Shown here piece after piece: positions 44,317 to 50,726 of a stretch of 64,000 nt of DNA. This stretch comes from Minisyncoccota bacterium. GTDB taxonomy: Bacteria; Verrucomicrobiota; Verrucomicrobiia; Methylacidiphilales; Verrucolacustridaceae. The DNA is taken from NCBI GenBank assembly GCA_030054195.1, contig JASGCJ010000001.1, positions 30,159-94,158 on the forward strand, given 5' to 3'. The notes below the pieces were generated by a model. It searched no databases and was not told the DNA's origin. It saw only the letters and a program-made list of their open reading frames with translations. Position 1 is the first letter of the stretch, and every line of letters begins with the position of its first letter. A program made the translations under genes and the position numbers.

Positions 44317-44982
44317 ATGCTCGAAACACGCGATCTTCATAAATCATACGAATCAGGCGAGGCCCGCGTGGATGCCTTGCGTGGCATCACTCTGAAAATC
44401 CTCCCAGGCGAAATCGTTGCTGTCACTGGGCCCAGCGGCTGTGGAAAAAGTACTCTCCTGCATATCCTTGGAGCGCTCGACACCCCCACATCAGGCCAAG
44501 CTTACCTCGAAGGACATCCCCTCCACTCCCTTAACGACGATAAACTGACCGCCCTCCGACGCCTTAAAATCGGCTTCGTTTTCCAATTCTTCCACCTCCT
44601 CCCCACCCTTACGGTCGAGGAAAACGTTCTTCTCCCCCTCCTCCTATCCGGACGTGTGAACGCCTCGGCTCGGCACCGTGCCAACGATCTCCTTAAATCC
44701 GTCCAACTCGCCGACCGCTCCCACCATCGCCCCCACCAGCTGTCCGGTGGACAACTCCAACGAGCCGCCCTCGCTCGTGCCCTCATCCACCAACCCTCGA
44801 TCCTTCTCGCCGACGAACCCACCGGCAATCTCGACTCCGCCTCCAGCACCATGGTCATCGATCTCATCACCCAACTCGCACGAAAAGAAAAAACCACAGT
44901 CGTTCTCGTCACCCACAGCGAAGAAATTGCCCGAACCGCCGATCGCCGAGTCGCCCTCGTCGACGGTCGTATCCACTCCTGA
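44317..44982 (+). CDS. ABC transporter ATP-binding protein (LolD/MacB/AttE type)
   Basis: A 221-residue ATPase of the lipoprotein-release or macrolide-export group. Walker A is GPSGCGKST, the signature LSGGQLQRAALARAL, and Walker B ILLADEPTGNLD. The FQFFHLLPTLTVEENV segment is typical of the LolD/MacB group. It is followed 2 bases later by a FtsX-type permease and then by an AttH-like gene, the order seen in attEFGH of Agrobacterium. Confidence 0.92.
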   Translation: MLETRDLHKSYESGEARVDALRGITLKILPGEIVAVTGPSGCGKSTLLHILGALDTPTSGQAYLEGHPLHSLNDDKLTALRRLKIGFVFQFFHLLPTLTVEENVLLPLLLSGRVNASARHRANDLLKSVQLADRSHHRPHQLSGGQLQRAALARALIHQPSILLADEPTGNLDSASSTMVIDLITQLARKEKTTVVLVTHSEEIARTADRRVALVDGRIHS

Positions 44983-44984
44983 TC

Positions 44985-47564
44985 TTGAACTGGTTGACCA
45001 CCCTCCGCGTCTTCCTTTCCCACGGGACCCGCGATTTTTTCCGACACAAAACTCTATCCCTACTCAACCTCCTTGCCCTCGCCGTCGGTGTCGCCGCCAT
45101 CGTCGCGATTCAAACTGTCAATGAAACTGCCCTCCGCTCATTCCGCGCCTCTCTCGACCTCGTCGCCGGCCGGCCCGACTTCACAATCGAAGGGCAAGGC
45201 TTCCGCCTCCCTGAAAAACTCATCCCTCTACTCAGGAACGATCCTGCAGTCCGCGAGGTCACTCCCACACTCTCTCTTGTCGCTTCCCTCCCCAATCACC
45301 CAGGGGAATTCCTTCATCTCATCGGCGTTGATCCCTTCTCGAATAGCGAACTCGTGACCTACCGCCTCGAAGACGCCCTCCGCTCCCCCACCGACGCCAT
45401 CGCCTTCGTTTCCGAACCCAACACCATCGCCCTCACTCGCTCCCTCGCCAACCGTCTCCACCTTCAACCCGGCGACTCCATCCGCGCTGTCTCCGCCGGT
45501 CATCAAGCCAACCTCCGGGTCCGCTTCCTTCTCGAACCTTCCCCCGACCTCCTGGGAGCCGATGATCACCTCGCGATCGCTGATATCGCCACCGTCCAGT
45601 CCGCCTTTGGGCTCTTCGGCCAAGTCGACCGCATCGAAGCCCTTCTTCAACCCGATGCCTCGGGAAAAATTGCCACAGCTCGCTCTTCCCTTCTCGAACG
45701 CCTTAAACCCCACCTCCCCGCCCACGCCCGAGCCGGCTCCCCCGAACGCCGAGGCCAAGAAGTCGAAAAAATGCTCGGCGCATTTCAACTCAACCTTACA
45801 GCACTCTCTCTCATCGCTCTCGTCGTCGGCATGTTTCTCGTAACCAATACCGTCGCCGCCAATGTAGTTCGCCGCCGATCCGAAATCGGCCTTCTGCGCT
45901 CTCTCGGACTCACCCAAAACTCCGTTGTCTTTATTCTCGTCGCCGAATCCCTTCTCCTCGGCTTTCTTGGTTCTGCAATCGGGATCATTCTCGGCCTTCA
46001 AGTCGCCCGCACTCTCCTTCAATCGGTCGCCTCCACGGTCACATCCCACTACGTTCTTCTCTCCATGCAGGAAATCGTCGTGAACCCATGGAGTCTCCTC
46101 GCTGCCGGCCTCGCGGGCCTTCTCGCCGCAAGCCTCGCCGCCTGGTGGCCCGCTCGCCAGGCCTCTCTCGTCTCTCCCGTCGACGCCCTTCTACCCGGGA
46201 ACTCCGCTGATCGCGCCTCCTCCCCACAATCCCACTTCCTTCGAGCCTCACTTCTCTGTTTTTTCCTCACCCTCCTCTTCTCTGCCACAGCCCTCTATGC
46301 CCGGATTCCACGGACCGGGTTTCTTGCCGCACTCAGCATTCTTCTCGCCGCCGCCTTCCTCGCTCCCGCCCTCGCACGACTTCTATCTCTCGTTCCTTCC
46401 CTGCCCTTCTCCTTCACGATTCTTGCCCGCTCCACTTTCTCCCGTGGTCTTCACCGACACGGCCTCGCTGCCGCCGCACTCTCCGTCGCTGTCGCCATGG
46501 CTATCGGCGTCACCATCATGGTCCACAGTTTTCGTGCCACCGTCGATCAGTGGATCGGAGAAAGCATCAAAGCCGACCTCTTTATCGCTCCCTCGACGAA
46601 CCTTATCGCGGGAGCGCTCGAACCCCTCGACCCCGAAGCCGAAACCCTCGCCCTCGCCACCCCCGGAGTCCGTGCCGTCGGCACCTACCGCGAAGTCCGC
46701 CTCTTCCTCGATGGAACCCCCGCCAAACTCGCCGCCTGCCGACTCGAAATCCTTCGCGTCTACAATCCTTTAACTTTTCTCTCTACCCTCCCAGGGGATC
46801 CCTACGAACTTTGCCAAAAGGGAGACTACGCCATCATTTCGGAAAACTTCGCCCGCCGGCGCCGACTCAAAGCCGGCGATACGGTCTCGCTCCCCACTCC
46901 GACAGGAACTCATCTGCTCCAAGTAGCCGCCATCTTCCGAGATTATACTTCCGAATCCGGACTCCTTCTTCTCGACCGCTCCGCCTACCGCCGACTGACC
47001 CAAGACCAGGGTCTGACCAGCCTCGCCATTCATCTCGAACCCGGCGTCTCTCCCCAAACCGTCGGCGACTCCCTACGGGAACAGCTCCGCCCCCGTGGCG
47101 AATTCCTCGTCTACTCACAGGCCGGACTTCGGAACGAAGCCCTCCGGATCTTCGACCGCTCCTTTGCTGTCACCGCCCTCCTCCGCACTCTTGCCATTGC
47201 GGTCGCCGCCCTCGGCGTCACCCTCTCCCTCACCGCCCTCGGAATCGAGCGCACACGCGAAATCGGAATCCTCCGAGCCACAGGCGCCTCCCGGGGACAA
47301 ATTCTTCGGACGATCATGACCGAGTCCGCTTATCTCGGTACCACTGGGATTCTCCTCGGACTCGTCACCGGTTTTGCAGTTGCCCTTATCTTGATGCAGG
47401 TCATTAACCGCGCTTTCTTCGGATGGACCATCGACTGGTACACCCCTTACCCCTCTCTCGTGGGTATTGTCATCGGAATGATGGTTGCCTGCTTGTTGGC
47501 CTCTCTTCCCCCCGCCTGGCACGCCTCCCGTCTCTCCCCCGCCGAAGCCCTACGCTCCGAATGA
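44985..47564 (+). CDS. FtsX-type ABC transporter permease, double-length (AttF/AttG-like)
   Basis: An 859-residue permease with an N-terminal membrane segment and two FtsX cores. The first core is near residues 265-390 (LIALVVGMFLVTNTVAANVVRRRSEIGLLRSLG) and the second at the C-terminus (ERTREIGILRATGASRGQILRTI). Between them lie two MacB-like periplasmic domains and further membrane segments. The start is a TTG at 44985, 2 bases after the ATPase stop. The stop overlaps the next start (ATGA). The system should move lipids, lipoproteins or a hydrophobic product outward or into the outer membrane (inference). Confidence 0.9.
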   Translation: MNWLTTLRVFLSHGTRDFFRHKTLSLLNLLALAVGVAAIVAIQTVNETALRSFRASLDLVAGRPDFTIEGQGFRLPEKLIPLLRNDPAVREVTPTLSLVASLPNHPGEFLHLIGVDPFSNSELVTYRLEDALRSPTDAIAFVSEPNTIALTRSLANRLHLQPGDSIRAVSAGHQANLRVRFLLEPSPDLLGADDHLAIADIATVQSAFGLFGQVDRIEALLQPDASGKIATARSSLLERLKPHLPAHARAGSPERRGQEVEKMLGAFQLNLTALSLIALVVGMFLVTNTVAANVVRRRSEIGLLRSLGLTQNSVVFILVAESLLLGFLGSAIGIILGLQVARTLLQSVASTVTSHYVLLSMQEIVVNPWSLLAAGLAGLLAASLAAWWPARQASLVSPVDALLPGNSADRASSPQSHFLRASLLCFFLTLLFSATALYARIPRTGFLAALSILLAAAFLAPALARLLSLVPSLPFSFTILARSTFSRGLHRHGLAAAALSVAVAMAIGVTIMVHSFRATVDQWIGESIKADLFIAPSTNLIAGALEPLDPEAETLALATPGVRAVGTYREVRLFLDGTPAKLAACRLEILRVYNPLTFLSTLPGDPYELCQKGDYAIISENFARRRRLKAGDTVSLPTPTGTHLLQVAAIFRDYTSESGLLLLDRSAYRRLTQDQGLTSLAIHLEPGVSPQTVGDSLREQLRPRGEFLVYSQAGLRNEALRIFDRSFAVTALLRTLAIAVAALGVTLSLTALGIERTREIGILRATGASRGQILRTIMTESAYLGTTGILLGLVTGFAVALILMQVINRAFFGWTIDWYTPYPSLVGIVIGMMVACLLASLPPAWHASRLSPAEALRSE

Positions 47565-48664
47565 AAAAACTTCTCCCCATTCTCCTCTTTTTCCTCGCAA
47601 CCTCTGGACTCCATGCGGCCGATCCTTGGGCTCGTGCAATGAAGCCATGGTCCTGGTCTTTCCCACGCGATCACGGAGCCCACCCAGAATTCAAAACCGA
47701 ATGGTGGTACCTCACTGGAAACCTCGACGATGAAAACGGAAACCCCTACGGCTACGAACTCACCTTCTTCCGCCATGGGCTTCAACCTGTCGCCACCCAA
47801 CCTGACTCCGCTTGGTCGATTCGTGACATCTCCTTTGCCCATCTCGCCATCACGGATGTCCGCTCTCGCCGCTTTCTTTTTTCCGAAAAACTCAGCCGAG
47901 GCGCACTCGGAGAGGTAGAGATTTCGCAAAAAGACATGCAAGTCCGGATCGCCGACTGGACCCTCCAGAGAAAAACTGACTCAACTCTCACCATGTCCGC
48001 CTCCGATCCCACCACAGGAATCGGACTCGATCTTTCGGCTACCCCCCTGAAACCTCTCACCTTCCAAGGTGAAAAAGGCTTAAGCCGAAAATCCGCTACT
48101 CCCGGCAACGCCAGCCACTACTACTCCTTCACCCGCCTCCAAACCACGGGCCAACTCGAACTTGGTGGCAAAAAAATTCCGGTCAAAGGACTCTCCTGGT
48201 TCGATCACGAATTCTCCACCTCTGCTCTCGGCGAAGATCAGGAAGGTTGGGACTGGTTCTGTCTCCAGTTCGATTCGGGCGATGAATTGATGCTCTATCG
48301 GATGCGCAACCCGGGCAATCGAACCGATCCCGCCTCCTCCGGAACCTGGATCCCTGCTCGGGGCCCCTCCCTGCCTCTTAAGTCGTCCGACTTTACCATC
48401 ACTCCCATCGACGAGTGGAAAACCGCCAGTGGAGCCACGTATCCATCAGGTTGGAAAATCTCCATTCCTTCTCTTGATTTCACGGGGGAAGTTCAGCCTC
48501 TTCTTCTCGATCAAGAACTCCAACTCAAACGAACCGCAAAGATCCGTTATTGGGAGGGAGCATGTCGTTTCACAGGAAATCGGAGCGGAAAAGCTATCTC
48601 TGGTCGTGGCTATACCGAACTGACCGGCTACGCATCACCTATCGGCCAAGGAATGAAAGAATAG
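47561..48664 (+). CDS. AttH/CrtC-like secreted lipocalin-fold protein
   Basis: A 367-residue protein with a signal peptide (MKKLLPILLFFLATSGLHA). The core motifs EWWYLTGNL, YGYELTFFRHG and GLSWFDHEFST are those of the AttH/CrtC (hydroxyneurosporene synthase-like) family, which adopts a double-lipocalin fold. In att operons this protein accompanies an ABC exporter of unknown cargo. No carotenoid genes are seen. The ATG at 47561 overlaps the permease stop. The last ten codons are repeated downstream at 48724-48756. Confidence 0.87.
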   Translation: MKKLLPILLFFLATSGLHAADPWARAMKPWSWSFPRDHGAHPEFKTEWWYLTGNLDDENGNPYGYELTFFRHGLQPVATQPDSAWSIRDISFAHLAITDVRSRRFLFSEKLSRGALGEVEISQKDMQVRIADWTLQRKTDSTLTMSASDPTTGIGLDLSATPLKPLTFQGEKGLSRKSATPGNASHYYSFTRLQTTGQLELGGKKIPVKGLSWFDHEFSTSALGEDQEGWDWFCLQFDSGDELMLYRMRNPGNRTDPASSGTWIPARGPSLPLKSSDFTITPIDEWKTASGATYPSGWKISIPSLDFTGEVQPLLLDQELQLKRTAKIRYWEGACRFTGNRSGKAISGRGYTELTGYASPIGQGMKE

Positions 48665-48679
48665 TCACTTTCAGATCAA

Positions 48680-48725
48680 GCCCTTCGAAGCTCAGCGAGC
48701 TTGCCGAGACTGAGCAAAGTAGGGC
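48680..48725. repeat. REP-like nested hairpin
   Basis: Outer arms GCCCT/AGGGC (48680-48684 and 48721-48725) and inner arms GCTCAG/CTGAGC (48690-48695 and 48710-48715) form a nested inverted repeat. The CCTTCGA...CTCAG wording resembles extragenic REP elements. It sits between the two copies of the attH tail. Confidence 0.45.
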
Positions 48726-48756
48726 ATCACCCATCGGCCAAGGAATGAAGGAGTAA
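48724..48756 (+). repeat. second copy of the last 11 codons of the AttH-like gene
   Basis: A 33-base repeat of 48632-48664. It differs at 4 positions, all third codon positions (Pro, Lys, Glu and stop codons), so the coded ending ASPIGQGMKE is unchanged. It ends 2 bases before the stop of the convergent PEP-CTERM gene. Confidence 0.75.
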
Positions 48757-48757
48757 T

Positions 48758-49477
48758 TTACTCCTTTGACAAAAACCGTTTCCGAGCCGCCACCAAACCC
48801 ACCAACCCGATGAGCAATAAGGTGCTACTGGACGGCTCGGGAATTACGTTGAATGTGTACGTTTCCGTAGCGCTCTCCAGCACCCCGAAATTGGCATCCG
48901 TATAACTGGCCTTCAGATCAAAGGTGTAAGTTCCGGGAGCGGAGAAGCCCCAGTTGTAGTGGATATGCCCTGTCGTGATAGAAAAACCACTGGTCCCCAC
49001 TTCAGATCCAGTTGCCGAAAGACGAATTGAACTGCCAGCGGTGAAAAGTGCAAAGTTACCTGGATTCGCTGGGCCTGCACCTACCATGGTGAAAGTTACA
49101 GAACCTGCAGGAAAACCAGCCTTTGCCACACCTGCCTCAATGAGGCCTAAATTAGCCGCCTGATCCAAATCTACCGGAAGTATCCAAGCATTTGCCCCAA
49201 GAAGCGTAGTGATATCTGCTGAAAATCCATCGGAGCTCCTATAGGCAGCATTGCCAACCTCTAGCAGAACATCCGCCGGCTCGTAGTGACCCGTATCTGT
49301 ATGAACTCCAAGGTGAATCGTTGGCGCGTTTGTGCCGACTTGCTCGTACTCAGCTTCAAAAATATCGGTGTGCCCGCTCGAAATCGTTTTCGTCGCACGG
49401 GCCACATCGTAACACGAAAGGGCTAACAGCAATCCGAGCAACATCCATGGCGTGAGTTTTGTGTTTGTGTATTTCAT
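48758..49477 (-). CDS. choice-of-anchor M-type surface protein with PEP-CTERM sorting signal
   Basis: A 239-residue secreted protein from the ATG at 49477, which gives a signal peptide ending near ARA. The mature N-terminus SGHTDIFEAEYE and the later TGHIHYNWGFSAPGTYTF match the TIGR03769-like (choice-of-anchor M) domain of surface proteins. His is concentrated in HLGVHTDTGHYEP and GHIHYN. The C-terminus has PEP followed by a membrane helix and a basic cluster (ARKR), the PEP-CTERM/exosortase signal. It follows the pseudopilin by 25 bases and faces a Fur-family gene, which suggests metal-linked expression. Confidence 0.78.
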   Translation of the reverse strand: MKYTNTKLTPWMLLGLLLALSCYDVARATKTISSGHTDIFEAEYEQVGTNAPTIHLGVHTDTGHYEPADVLLEVGNAAYRSSDGFSADITTLLGANAWILPVDLDQAANLGLIEAGVAKAGFPAGSVTFTMVGAGPANPGNFALFTAGSSIRLSATGSEVGTSGFSITTGHIHYNWGFSAPGTYTFDLKASYTDANFGVLESATETYTFNVIPEPSSSTLLLIGLVGLVAARKRFLSKE

Positions 49478-49502
49478 ATGTATTTTCTTTCTGGGTTGGT
49501 GT

Positions 49503-50192
49503 TTAGAAGGCTTGCTTGGCAATATTCGTTCCGGCATCCGCTAACTGCTTGATGCGATTTGCAGATACCATTTCCACATGACCATCCGTGAACAAATAGG
49601 GCGAGGAACCAAAAGTACGGTCTGATTTCTTTCCGCGATACGCATCGGGCTTAATTTCACCCAACAAACGCGACCAACTGCGTAAATAAGCCCCATGAAT
49701 ATGATCCTCTTGACCGCGCGGATTCTTCGAATCCGAAGCCAGAAATAGGAGAACTCGTCGCGAAGAGTTTTCAATTCGTTGAACTCGGCAAAGCGAACCA
49801 GGCTCATCCACCTCGTCATTGATGAGGTAACTGGTGTTTTTAAACTTCCGTCGGGTCTCACGGAACGGATCGGACGGAGAGAGGCGTAGGTCGTCATAAT
49901 TTTGACCTAGGTAGGTGCGGAGCGAGTAAATCCAAGTTACTTCAAGATCCTCTTGAGTCTCTGCCTTGCAGCTCGACGGGGGAAGACATCCATTGTTGTC
50001 TCCCGTAAAAAGAAGAACCCCCTGCCCAATTTGACATAAATTCGATAGATCCTTGGATTGCTTTCCTTTTTCCAACGCCCCCTGCACTGCAGGTACAGCC
50101 AACCCAACCAGCAAGCCGCCAATCACAGCCCCAACCAGTAGCTCAACAAGGGAGAAGCCACCCGAACTTCCCCGCATCCGAATACTTTTCAT
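49503..50192 (-). CDS. type II/IV pseudopilin-like protein (prepilin methylation motif)
   Basis: A 229-residue protein with the prepilin peptidase site G-FSLVE (SGGFSLVELLVGAVIGGL) and a single N-terminal helix. The C-terminal domain contains cysteines and ends with the FTDGHVEM segment found in H-X9-DG-type verrucomicrobial pseudopilins. Candidate starts are ATG 50192 and ATG 50177; neither has a strong ribosome site. The ATG at 50192 lies about 7 bases from the -10 element, so the transcript may have almost no leader. It is the first gene of a two-gene unit. Confidence 0.8.
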   Translation of the reverse strand: MKSIRMRGSSGGFSLVELLVGAVIGGLLVGLAVPAVQGALEKGKQSKDLSNLCQIGQGVLLFTGDNNGCLPPSSCKAETQEDLEVTWIYSLRTYLGQNYDDLRLSPSDPFRETRRKFKNTSYLINDEVDEPGSLCRVQRIENSSRRVLLFLASDSKNPRGQEDHIHGAYLRSWSRLLGEIKPDAYRGKKSDRTFGSSPYLFTDGHVEMVSANRIKQLADAGTNIAKQAF

Positions 50193-50193
50193 T

Positions 50194-50209
50194 ATGCGAA
50201 TATACGCAT
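50194..50209. promoter_or_regulatory. operator-like palindrome 1 (pseudopilin side)
   Basis: ATGCG-AATATA-CGCAT is a perfect inverted repeat of 16 bases. It contains the predicted -10 element of the minus-strand promoter and begins 2 bases before the pseudopilin ATG. It matches palindrome 2 in its arms. Confidence 0.6.
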
Positions 50210-50226
50210 TCAAGAATCTTTGTCAA
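50199..50226 (-). promoter_or_regulatory. promoter of the pseudopilin / PEP-CTERM unit
   Basis: On the minus strand TTGACA (50226-50221) and TATATT (50204-50199) are separated by 16 bases. The -35 is a perfect consensus and the -10 matches 5 of 6. The transcription start would fall close to the ATG at 50192. Confidence 0.6.
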
Positions 50227-50248
50227 TGCGATTTTTCGCATTTATTTA
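50220..50248 (+). promoter_or_regulatory. possible promoter of the Fur-family gene
   Basis: TTGTCA (50220-50225), a 17-base spacer that holds palindrome 2, and TATTTA (50243-50248). The -35 shares its bases with the -35 of the opposite promoter. The -10 is weak. The gene ATG is 62 bases further on. Confidence 0.4.
50225..50242. promoter_or_regulatory. operator-like palindrome 2 (Fur side)
   Basis: AATGCGATTTTTCGCATT is a perfect 18-base inverted repeat with 7-base arms. Its centre lies 32 bases, three helical turns, from that of palindrome 1. It overlaps the -35 of the minus promoter and lies in the spacer of the plus promoter, as expected of a Fur-type dimer site under autoregulation. Confidence 0.62.
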
Positions 50249-50309
50249 GCCCTTTTTAGGCTTAATTTTCCTCGAATCACGCTCGGCTTCGCTCCACTTT
50301 ACATCCGTT

Positions 50310-50726
50310 ATGCGCCACTCCCACGCCAAGGCAGCTAATCCCCTCAAAGAGTCGGGTCTCAAGTCCACTCCAGGGCGTAGGGCGGTTCTTCAAGTCCTCG
50401 AAAAGGCCTCCTCCCCGCTCTCCCCAGAACAGATCCACGCCAAAGTGGGGTCAGAGGTGTGCGACCGCGCCACCGTCTACCGAATCCTCGACTCCCTCAG
50501 CCAGGCCGGCCTCGCCCAAAGACTCACCCTCGAAGGCAAAACCCTATACCTCCCCGAGGAGTCGAACCACCACCATCACCACATCATTTGCCGCAAGTGT
50601 CGCTCTACCGTTTGCCTCGACGAGTGCCTCATCTCCCCTTTAGAAAAAAAAGCCCAACAGCTCGGCTTTCAAGACATTCACCACTCCCTCCAACTGACTG
50701 GTCTCTGCGCAAAATGCGCCAGCTAG
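50310..50726 (+). CDS. Fur-family metalloregulator
   Basis: A 138-residue Fur-superfamily repressor. The N-terminal winged helix includes TPGRRAVLQVLEKA and CDRATVYRILDSLSQAGL. The dimer domain has the histidine run (ESNHHHHHIICRKC) and two structural cysteine pairs, CRKC and CAKC. Which metal it senses (Fe, Zn or Mn) cannot be read directly. The context of a surface protein of a family often linked to Zn/Mn transport points to Zur-like function (inference). Two palindromes lie in its upstream region. It is convergent with uppP, 7 bases apart. Confidence 0.92.
   Translation: MRHSHAKAANPLKESGLKSTPGRRAVLQVLEKASSPLSPEQIHAKVGSEVCDRATVYRILDSLSQAGLAQRLTLEGKTLYLPEESNHHHHHIICRKCRSTVCLDECLISPLEKKAQQLGFQDIHHSLQLTGLCAKCAS

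Follow-up and report, generated by a model that had tools for sequence, protein, structure and literature searches.

L31 and COG0523 genes are classical targets of Zur, and Zur boxes lying over the −35 element are known, as are paired boxes at the −35 and −10 elements of S. coelicolor znuA and B. subtilis yciC (PMC6103462). In Corynebacterium diphtheriae, zinc and Zur repress anchored-repeat surface proteins together with their ABC transporter (PMC6711530). Anabaena ZepA is a Zur-repressed, zinc-binding PEP-CTERM exoprotein, and its relatives in the PVC group have a Fur-family gene, COG0523, and ZnuA as neighbours (Sarasa-Buisan et al. 2024, PMC10957091). In the open-access papers searched, nothing relevant was found that links pseudopilins to Zur; neither a TAATGCAA-type Zur box nor a pseudopilin within a Zur regulon was found there, and no Zur operator turned up for the phylum studied here.

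The locus described here lies in a window of 64,000 nucleotides (the whole stretch of DNA that was analysed) and combines a regulator gene with a divergent surface-protein and pseudopilin operon. Its features are as follows.

50310..50726, plus strand: Fur-superfamily regulator of 138 amino acids, most likely a Zur (Pfam FUR, PF01475, E 7e-21)
49503..50177, minus strand: pseudopilin with the prepilin N-terminal motif GFSLVELL (Pfam N_methyl)
48758..49477, minus strand: choice-of-anchor-M surface protein with a PEP-CTERM tail (start at ATG 49477 or 49537)
50225..50242, no strand: box 2, the predicted operator AATGCGATTTTTCGCATT, an 18-bp palindrome with arms AATGCGA/TCGCATT and a spacer of 4
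50194..50209, no strand: box 1, palindrome ATGCGAATATACGCAT over the −10 of the pseudopilin promoter, a possible auxiliary operator
50199..50226, minus strand: promoter of the pseudopilin/surface-protein operon, TTGACA-N16-TATATT (promoter scan, 11/12 matches)
50220..50248, plus strand: putative regulator promoter TTGTCA-N17-TATTTA with box 2 in its spacer (read from the sequence; weak −10)

The pseudopilin, whose open frame extends from 50213, probably starts at the ATG at 50177; it has a prepilin cleavage motif and scores 21.7 bits with N_methyl against a threshold of 21.2. Alignment places it in a distinct, cassette-specific subfamily, relatives of which touch the H-X9-DG-CTERM model, and the residues common to the subfamily include W-I-Y-x-L, V-R-I-C-P-x-D-P, T-S-Y, D-H-x-H, and A-D-G-H. 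The D-H-x-H reads D-H-V-C in three members, a His/Cys exchange that is suggestive, as a hint at most, of a metal ligand. The surface protein passes the cut-offs of both NF038134 (72.8 bits; cut-off, 55) and TIGR03769 (40.8 bits; cut-off, 30.9), and its C-terminal PEP motif, transmembrane segment, and basic tail match PF07589 with 22 bits versus 20.7. GH-x-D and G-H-x-H are among the invariant motifs of its family and are plausible zinc ligands. A fold search with a model of this protein (pLDDT 84) returned no significant PDB match and weak likeness to beta-sandwich domains only, and a PDB profile search gave no match. The genome has a prepilin peptidase (domain E 2.5e-29) and an exosortase (E 3.7e-42), which processing of the two products would require. 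The genome also encodes two ZIP-family proteins and a second Fur-family protein, and no ABC-3 zinc permease was detectable in it. A LolD-like ATPase, a double FtsX permease, and a CrtC-type lipocalin protein lie in a row at 44317-48661 (plus strand) and resemble an AttEFGH-type exporter; this row adjoins the cassette, in convergent orientation, in several genomes of the genus. Within 48631-48757, the terminal part of the CrtC/AttH-like gene (ATCACCTATCGGCCAAGGAATGAA...) recurs ∼90 bp downstream, on the far side of a palindromic insert of REP-type appearance.

Two perfect palindromes with ATGCG/CGCAT arms, as described in a first reading made from the sequence only, were located in the intergenic region (ATGCGAATATACGCAT at 50194-50209 and ATGCGATTTTTCGCAT at 50226-50241), with centres 32 bp apart, and the window holds no further exact copy. 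With one mismatch allowed, three such palindromes occur in the window where 1.6 are expected, a count that was reached in 22 of 100 shuffles and is not significant; the unusual features are that a single intergenic region contains both exact copies, at a spacing of 32 bp, and that one of the two is conserved. Because the window count is within chance, the case for the palindromes rests on position and conservation. The promoter scan and the box positions agree with the sequence-only reading in that box 1 sits on the −10 of the pseudopilin promoter, the −35 of which has 1 to 2 bases in common with box 2. The −35 hexamers of the two divergent promoters were likewise said to be shared, and 5 bp are indeed common to both. 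Box 2 exactly fills the spacer of the putative regulator promoter, as that reading also proposed, but the promoter itself is weak, matching the −10 consensus at only three of six positions (TATTTA) and being absent from the promoter-scan output; in one genome of the genus (G016), TATATT stands in the place of this −10. The TTGAC beside the box is retained in most cassettes of the genus.

Ten genomes of the genus yielded homologous cassettes (the window genome being designated G000), and box 2 is present in all ten as AATGCRA-N4-TYGCATY or a close form, degenerate in G001. In nine cassettes, the near-duplicate G014 being left out, the mean pairwise identity of the box 2 arms is 0.89, versus 0.45 in the left flank (40 bases) and 0.33 in the right flank (54 bases). 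The palindromes could be chance or structural features with no regulatory role, in keeping with a window count within chance and a box 1 that is not conserved, but because box 2 is conserved in this way across divergent intergenic regions, such an explanation is scarcely credible. Apart from the window genome, box 1 was found in G014 alone, which carries a 99% identical regulator; in G004 and G011, another sequence, AGTGCGAATGTTCTCATT, forms the second box at a distance of 47 bp towards the regulator. A two-box switch with 32-bp spacing was ruled out as the essential geometry, as box 1 is not conserved. The idea that 32 bp, or three helical turns, formed the design of the switch was abandoned: one box is constant, and pairs in the phylum lie 22 to 59 bp apart.

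In G002, beside a regulator remnant, the box is kept with one mismatch, and it is present in a more degenerate form in G001, beside a regulator interrupted by a stop (a pseudogene); each of these genomes has an intact regulator copy elsewhere. Retention of the box beside a decayed regulator, together with the intact copy, fits a regulator able to act in trans and a box that would serve the pseudopilin operon. At three loci (L053 in G001, L055 in G012, and L056 in G002), the regulator lies beside an unrelated gene and the cassette is absent, and at L059 in G003 the cassette and those same regulator neighbours occur together. A deletion seems to have parted the cassette from the regulator, since L059 unites the cassette with these neighbours while the G001 and G002 cassettes keep a zur pseudogene or remnant.

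Related control sequences occur far beyond the genus. A 21-bp palindrome, TAATGCAAaTaAtTTGCATTA, recurs upstream of cassette operons in the phylum, often as box pairs at the distances given above, and the strong phylum palindrome TAATGCAA-N5-TTGCATTA precedes cassettes, a Cys-poor L31 gene, COG0523, and znuA. In 468 kb of neighbourhoods (27 phylum loci), 41 sites reached at least 18 bits, versus 0 to 1 per random set of the same dinucleotide make-up, and 36 of the 41 are found a short way upstream of cassette or zinc genes; because some of these upstream regions served to train the matrix, the enrichment is partly built in, and sites in untrained regions are the independent points. One of these (L108:2322) precedes the gene for a Cys-poor L31-like protein, behind which comes COG0523 (L108:2322-3933), a predicted classical zinc-sparing pair behind a Zur-type box; two others (L111:12917 and L113:12346) are near a MerC-like ORF. 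In L068, the 20.8-bit site close to the ZnuA start belonged to the training regions. Instead of the phylum motif, TGATAAT-type palindromes, which resemble Zur boxes known elsewhere, occur in L062 and L117. Compared with the phylum motif, the window box AATGCGA-N4-TCGCATT carries G for A in the arm and has a spacer shorter by one base; judging from the shared arms (AATGC/GCATT), the position, and the orthologous cassettes, it looks like a genus variant of that motif.

Neither a scan of the window genome and the genus genomes with the 18-bp box nor a scan of the genus with the 19-bp phylum motif revealed a convincing second target, and the leftover matches with two mismatches were near the level of a reversed-pattern control in most genus genomes. 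A perfect palindrome outside the window, AATGTGATTTATCACATT at G000:C40:133955-133972, was set aside; it has the look of a CRP/FNR-type site. The motif search suggested at the outset had a divided outcome, with no regulon found beyond this locus in the genome and conserved copies across relatives. The lack of a good box at other genes of the genome and genus is unusual for Zur and counts against the Zur reading; with ABC-3 zinc permeases nearly absent from the genus as well, the system is probably a small, local zinc-starvation switch, its regulon apparently having shrunk to one locus. Alternatively, the regulator might control its own gene only, the box touching the pseudopilin promoter through crowding and the cassette being otherwise without metal control. 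This would agree with a single conserved box between divergent genes and with the lack of further sites in the genome, but the box abuts the pseudopilin −35 across the genus, even beside a regulator remnant, and in other families comparable boxes precede pseudopilin/surface-protein operons with no regulator gene alongside. We consider control restricted to the regulator gene to be very unlikely.

Genes for zinc uptake neighbour the regulator in relatives (L062, L067, L068, and L125) and not in the window genome. In other families of the order, the regulator homologue lies in a zinc operon in L067 (G021), in the order Zur, ZnuA, an unassigned ORF, ZnuC, and ZnuB, and in L068 (G044), in the order ZnuA, ZnuC, ZnuB, and Zur, this last protein being 40% identical to that of the window. 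In L062 (G045), Zur is divergent from a surface protein, a pseudopilin (confirmed by NCBIfam), a COG0523 GTPase, ZnuA, ZnuC, and ZnuB, and in L125 (a Spartobacteria contig) a pseudopilin, two surface proteins, Zur, and ZnuA lie within 5.5 kb. A profile search with a tighter alignment gave matches among PVC members only. The choice-of-anchor-M gene scored above the cut-off in 25 of 388 genomes of the phylum sample, the window genome included. Among the other 24, a pseudopilin of the same subfamily lies beside it on the same strand in 12, and Zur, COG0523, or Znu genes lie within ∼9 kb in 11, the gene calls coming from HMMs seeded in this analysis and single labels being provisional; in some genomes the surface protein has no recognisable box or zinc neighbour. 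At six loci (L059, L054, L098, L105, L110, and L125), a second, longer choice-of-anchor-M protein is encoded immediately alongside the first one and the pseudopilin, hinting that the device may include two surface proteins.

The regulator had been assigned to the Fur superfamily, and both the Pfam match and the best PDB match, M. tuberculosis Zur/FurB (2o03; E 5e-17), bear this out. It keeps the structural Cys4 zinc motif and the His cluster, in that CRKC, CAKC, HHHHH, and DIHH align to M. tuberculosis Zur. It has Glu at the position of the sensory-site Cys (C76) of that protein, and the NCBIfam models for Fur and PerR score higher than that for enterobacterial Zur, all far below cut-off, so that neither these scores nor the alignment cleanly separates it as Zur or Fur. 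The assignment therefore rests on gene neighbourhood, by which the window regulator is most likely a Zur, predicted to bind zinc and DNA. Regulator homologues inside znuABC operons also lack the C76-type Cys, most of them having in common another Cys some nine residues past the CxxC, and this residue may not be diagnostic for Zur in the phylum.

Iron, manganese, or peroxide, as in the Fur-family types Fur, Mur, and PerR, could instead be the signal that the regulator senses, the zinc neighbours in relatives belonging to older or different paralogues. The Glu replacement and the order of the model scores point in this direction, as does the loss of the zinc ABC permease, missing in 20 of 21 assemblies of the genus (63 to 96% complete). 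However, the closest solved relative is a Zur, the znuABC-borne homologues share the absence of that Cys, a second Fur-family protein is present in the genome for another metal, and the cassette partners are zinc-linked across the phylum, and on balance we regard another signal as unlikely.

Zinc is favoured as the metal because of the gene neighbourhoods in relatives, and the originally proposed control of a surface protein and a pseudopilin by a Fur-family regulator is supported, narrowed to zinc, without its paired-box geometry. It is likely that the locus is a Zur-controlled zinc-starvation cassette operating as follows. When zinc is plentiful, the zinc-loaded regulator (50310-50726) would bind box 2 as a dimer, with zinc as co-repressor, and cover the −35 region shared by the face-to-face promoters, blocking RNA polymerase so that the pseudopilin/surface-protein operon and the regulator gene are both off; box 1, where present, would tighten repression at the −10. 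As zinc falls, the regulator would release the DNA and free both promoters, and the cassette is probably switched on by Zur in this way when zinc is short. A histidine-rich, exosortase-processed surface protein and a dedicated pseudopilin would then be made; their joint role is probably the capture or handling of zinc on the cell surface.

More tentatively, and with considerable doubt, the two proteins might form a Zur-controlled device, as yet undescribed, by which Verrucomicrobiota and relatives acquire zinc at their surface. A pseudopilus-like structure bearing the conserved D-H-x-H/C motif would then contribute to zinc capture, and in this genus the device would replace the missing ZnuABC.

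The locus offers the phylum a concrete candidate zinc regulon with a named operator (TAATGCAA-N5-TTGCATTA and its genus variant), and the same cassette and a related control sequence recur by zinc genes across a whole bacterial phylum. Beyond the Actinobacteria, it would connect with zinc starvation both the choice-of-anchor-M proteins and a pseudopilin subfamily that had no assignment before, and it exemplifies a regulon apparently reduced to one locus, with an operator changed in arm sequence and spacing.

The window surface protein resembles the products of the Corynebacterium CmrA/anchored-repeat genes in matching TIGR03769/TIGR03773-type models, but the latter system is Gram-positive, sortase anchored, and accompanied by a transporter, whereas that of the window has a PEP-CTERM tail and a pseudopilin in a genome with no ABC-3 permease (PMC6711530). 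Like ZepA, which is secreted, has a signal peptide, and is repressed by Zur, the surface protein has a PEP-CTERM tail and His residues; the exact ZepA motif, H-X2-9-H-F/Y-H, is absent from it, other His pairs being conserved, and, unlike the window cassette, the Zur-zepA system involves no pseudopilin mentioned in the text of that paper (PMC10957091). In contrast to the reviewed Zur systems, the sensory-site Cys is replaced and the regulon is apparently one locus. The operator AATGCGA-N4-TCGCATT, which the sequence-only reading called apparently new, is not among the boxes quoted in that review, although it appears to be a one-base-shorter variant of a phylum-wide motif. With Zur of M. tuberculosis, S. 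coelicolor, B. subtilis, and E. coli, the window system shares the Fur fold, the Cys4 site, the His cluster, and a palindrome at the −35 (PMC6103462).
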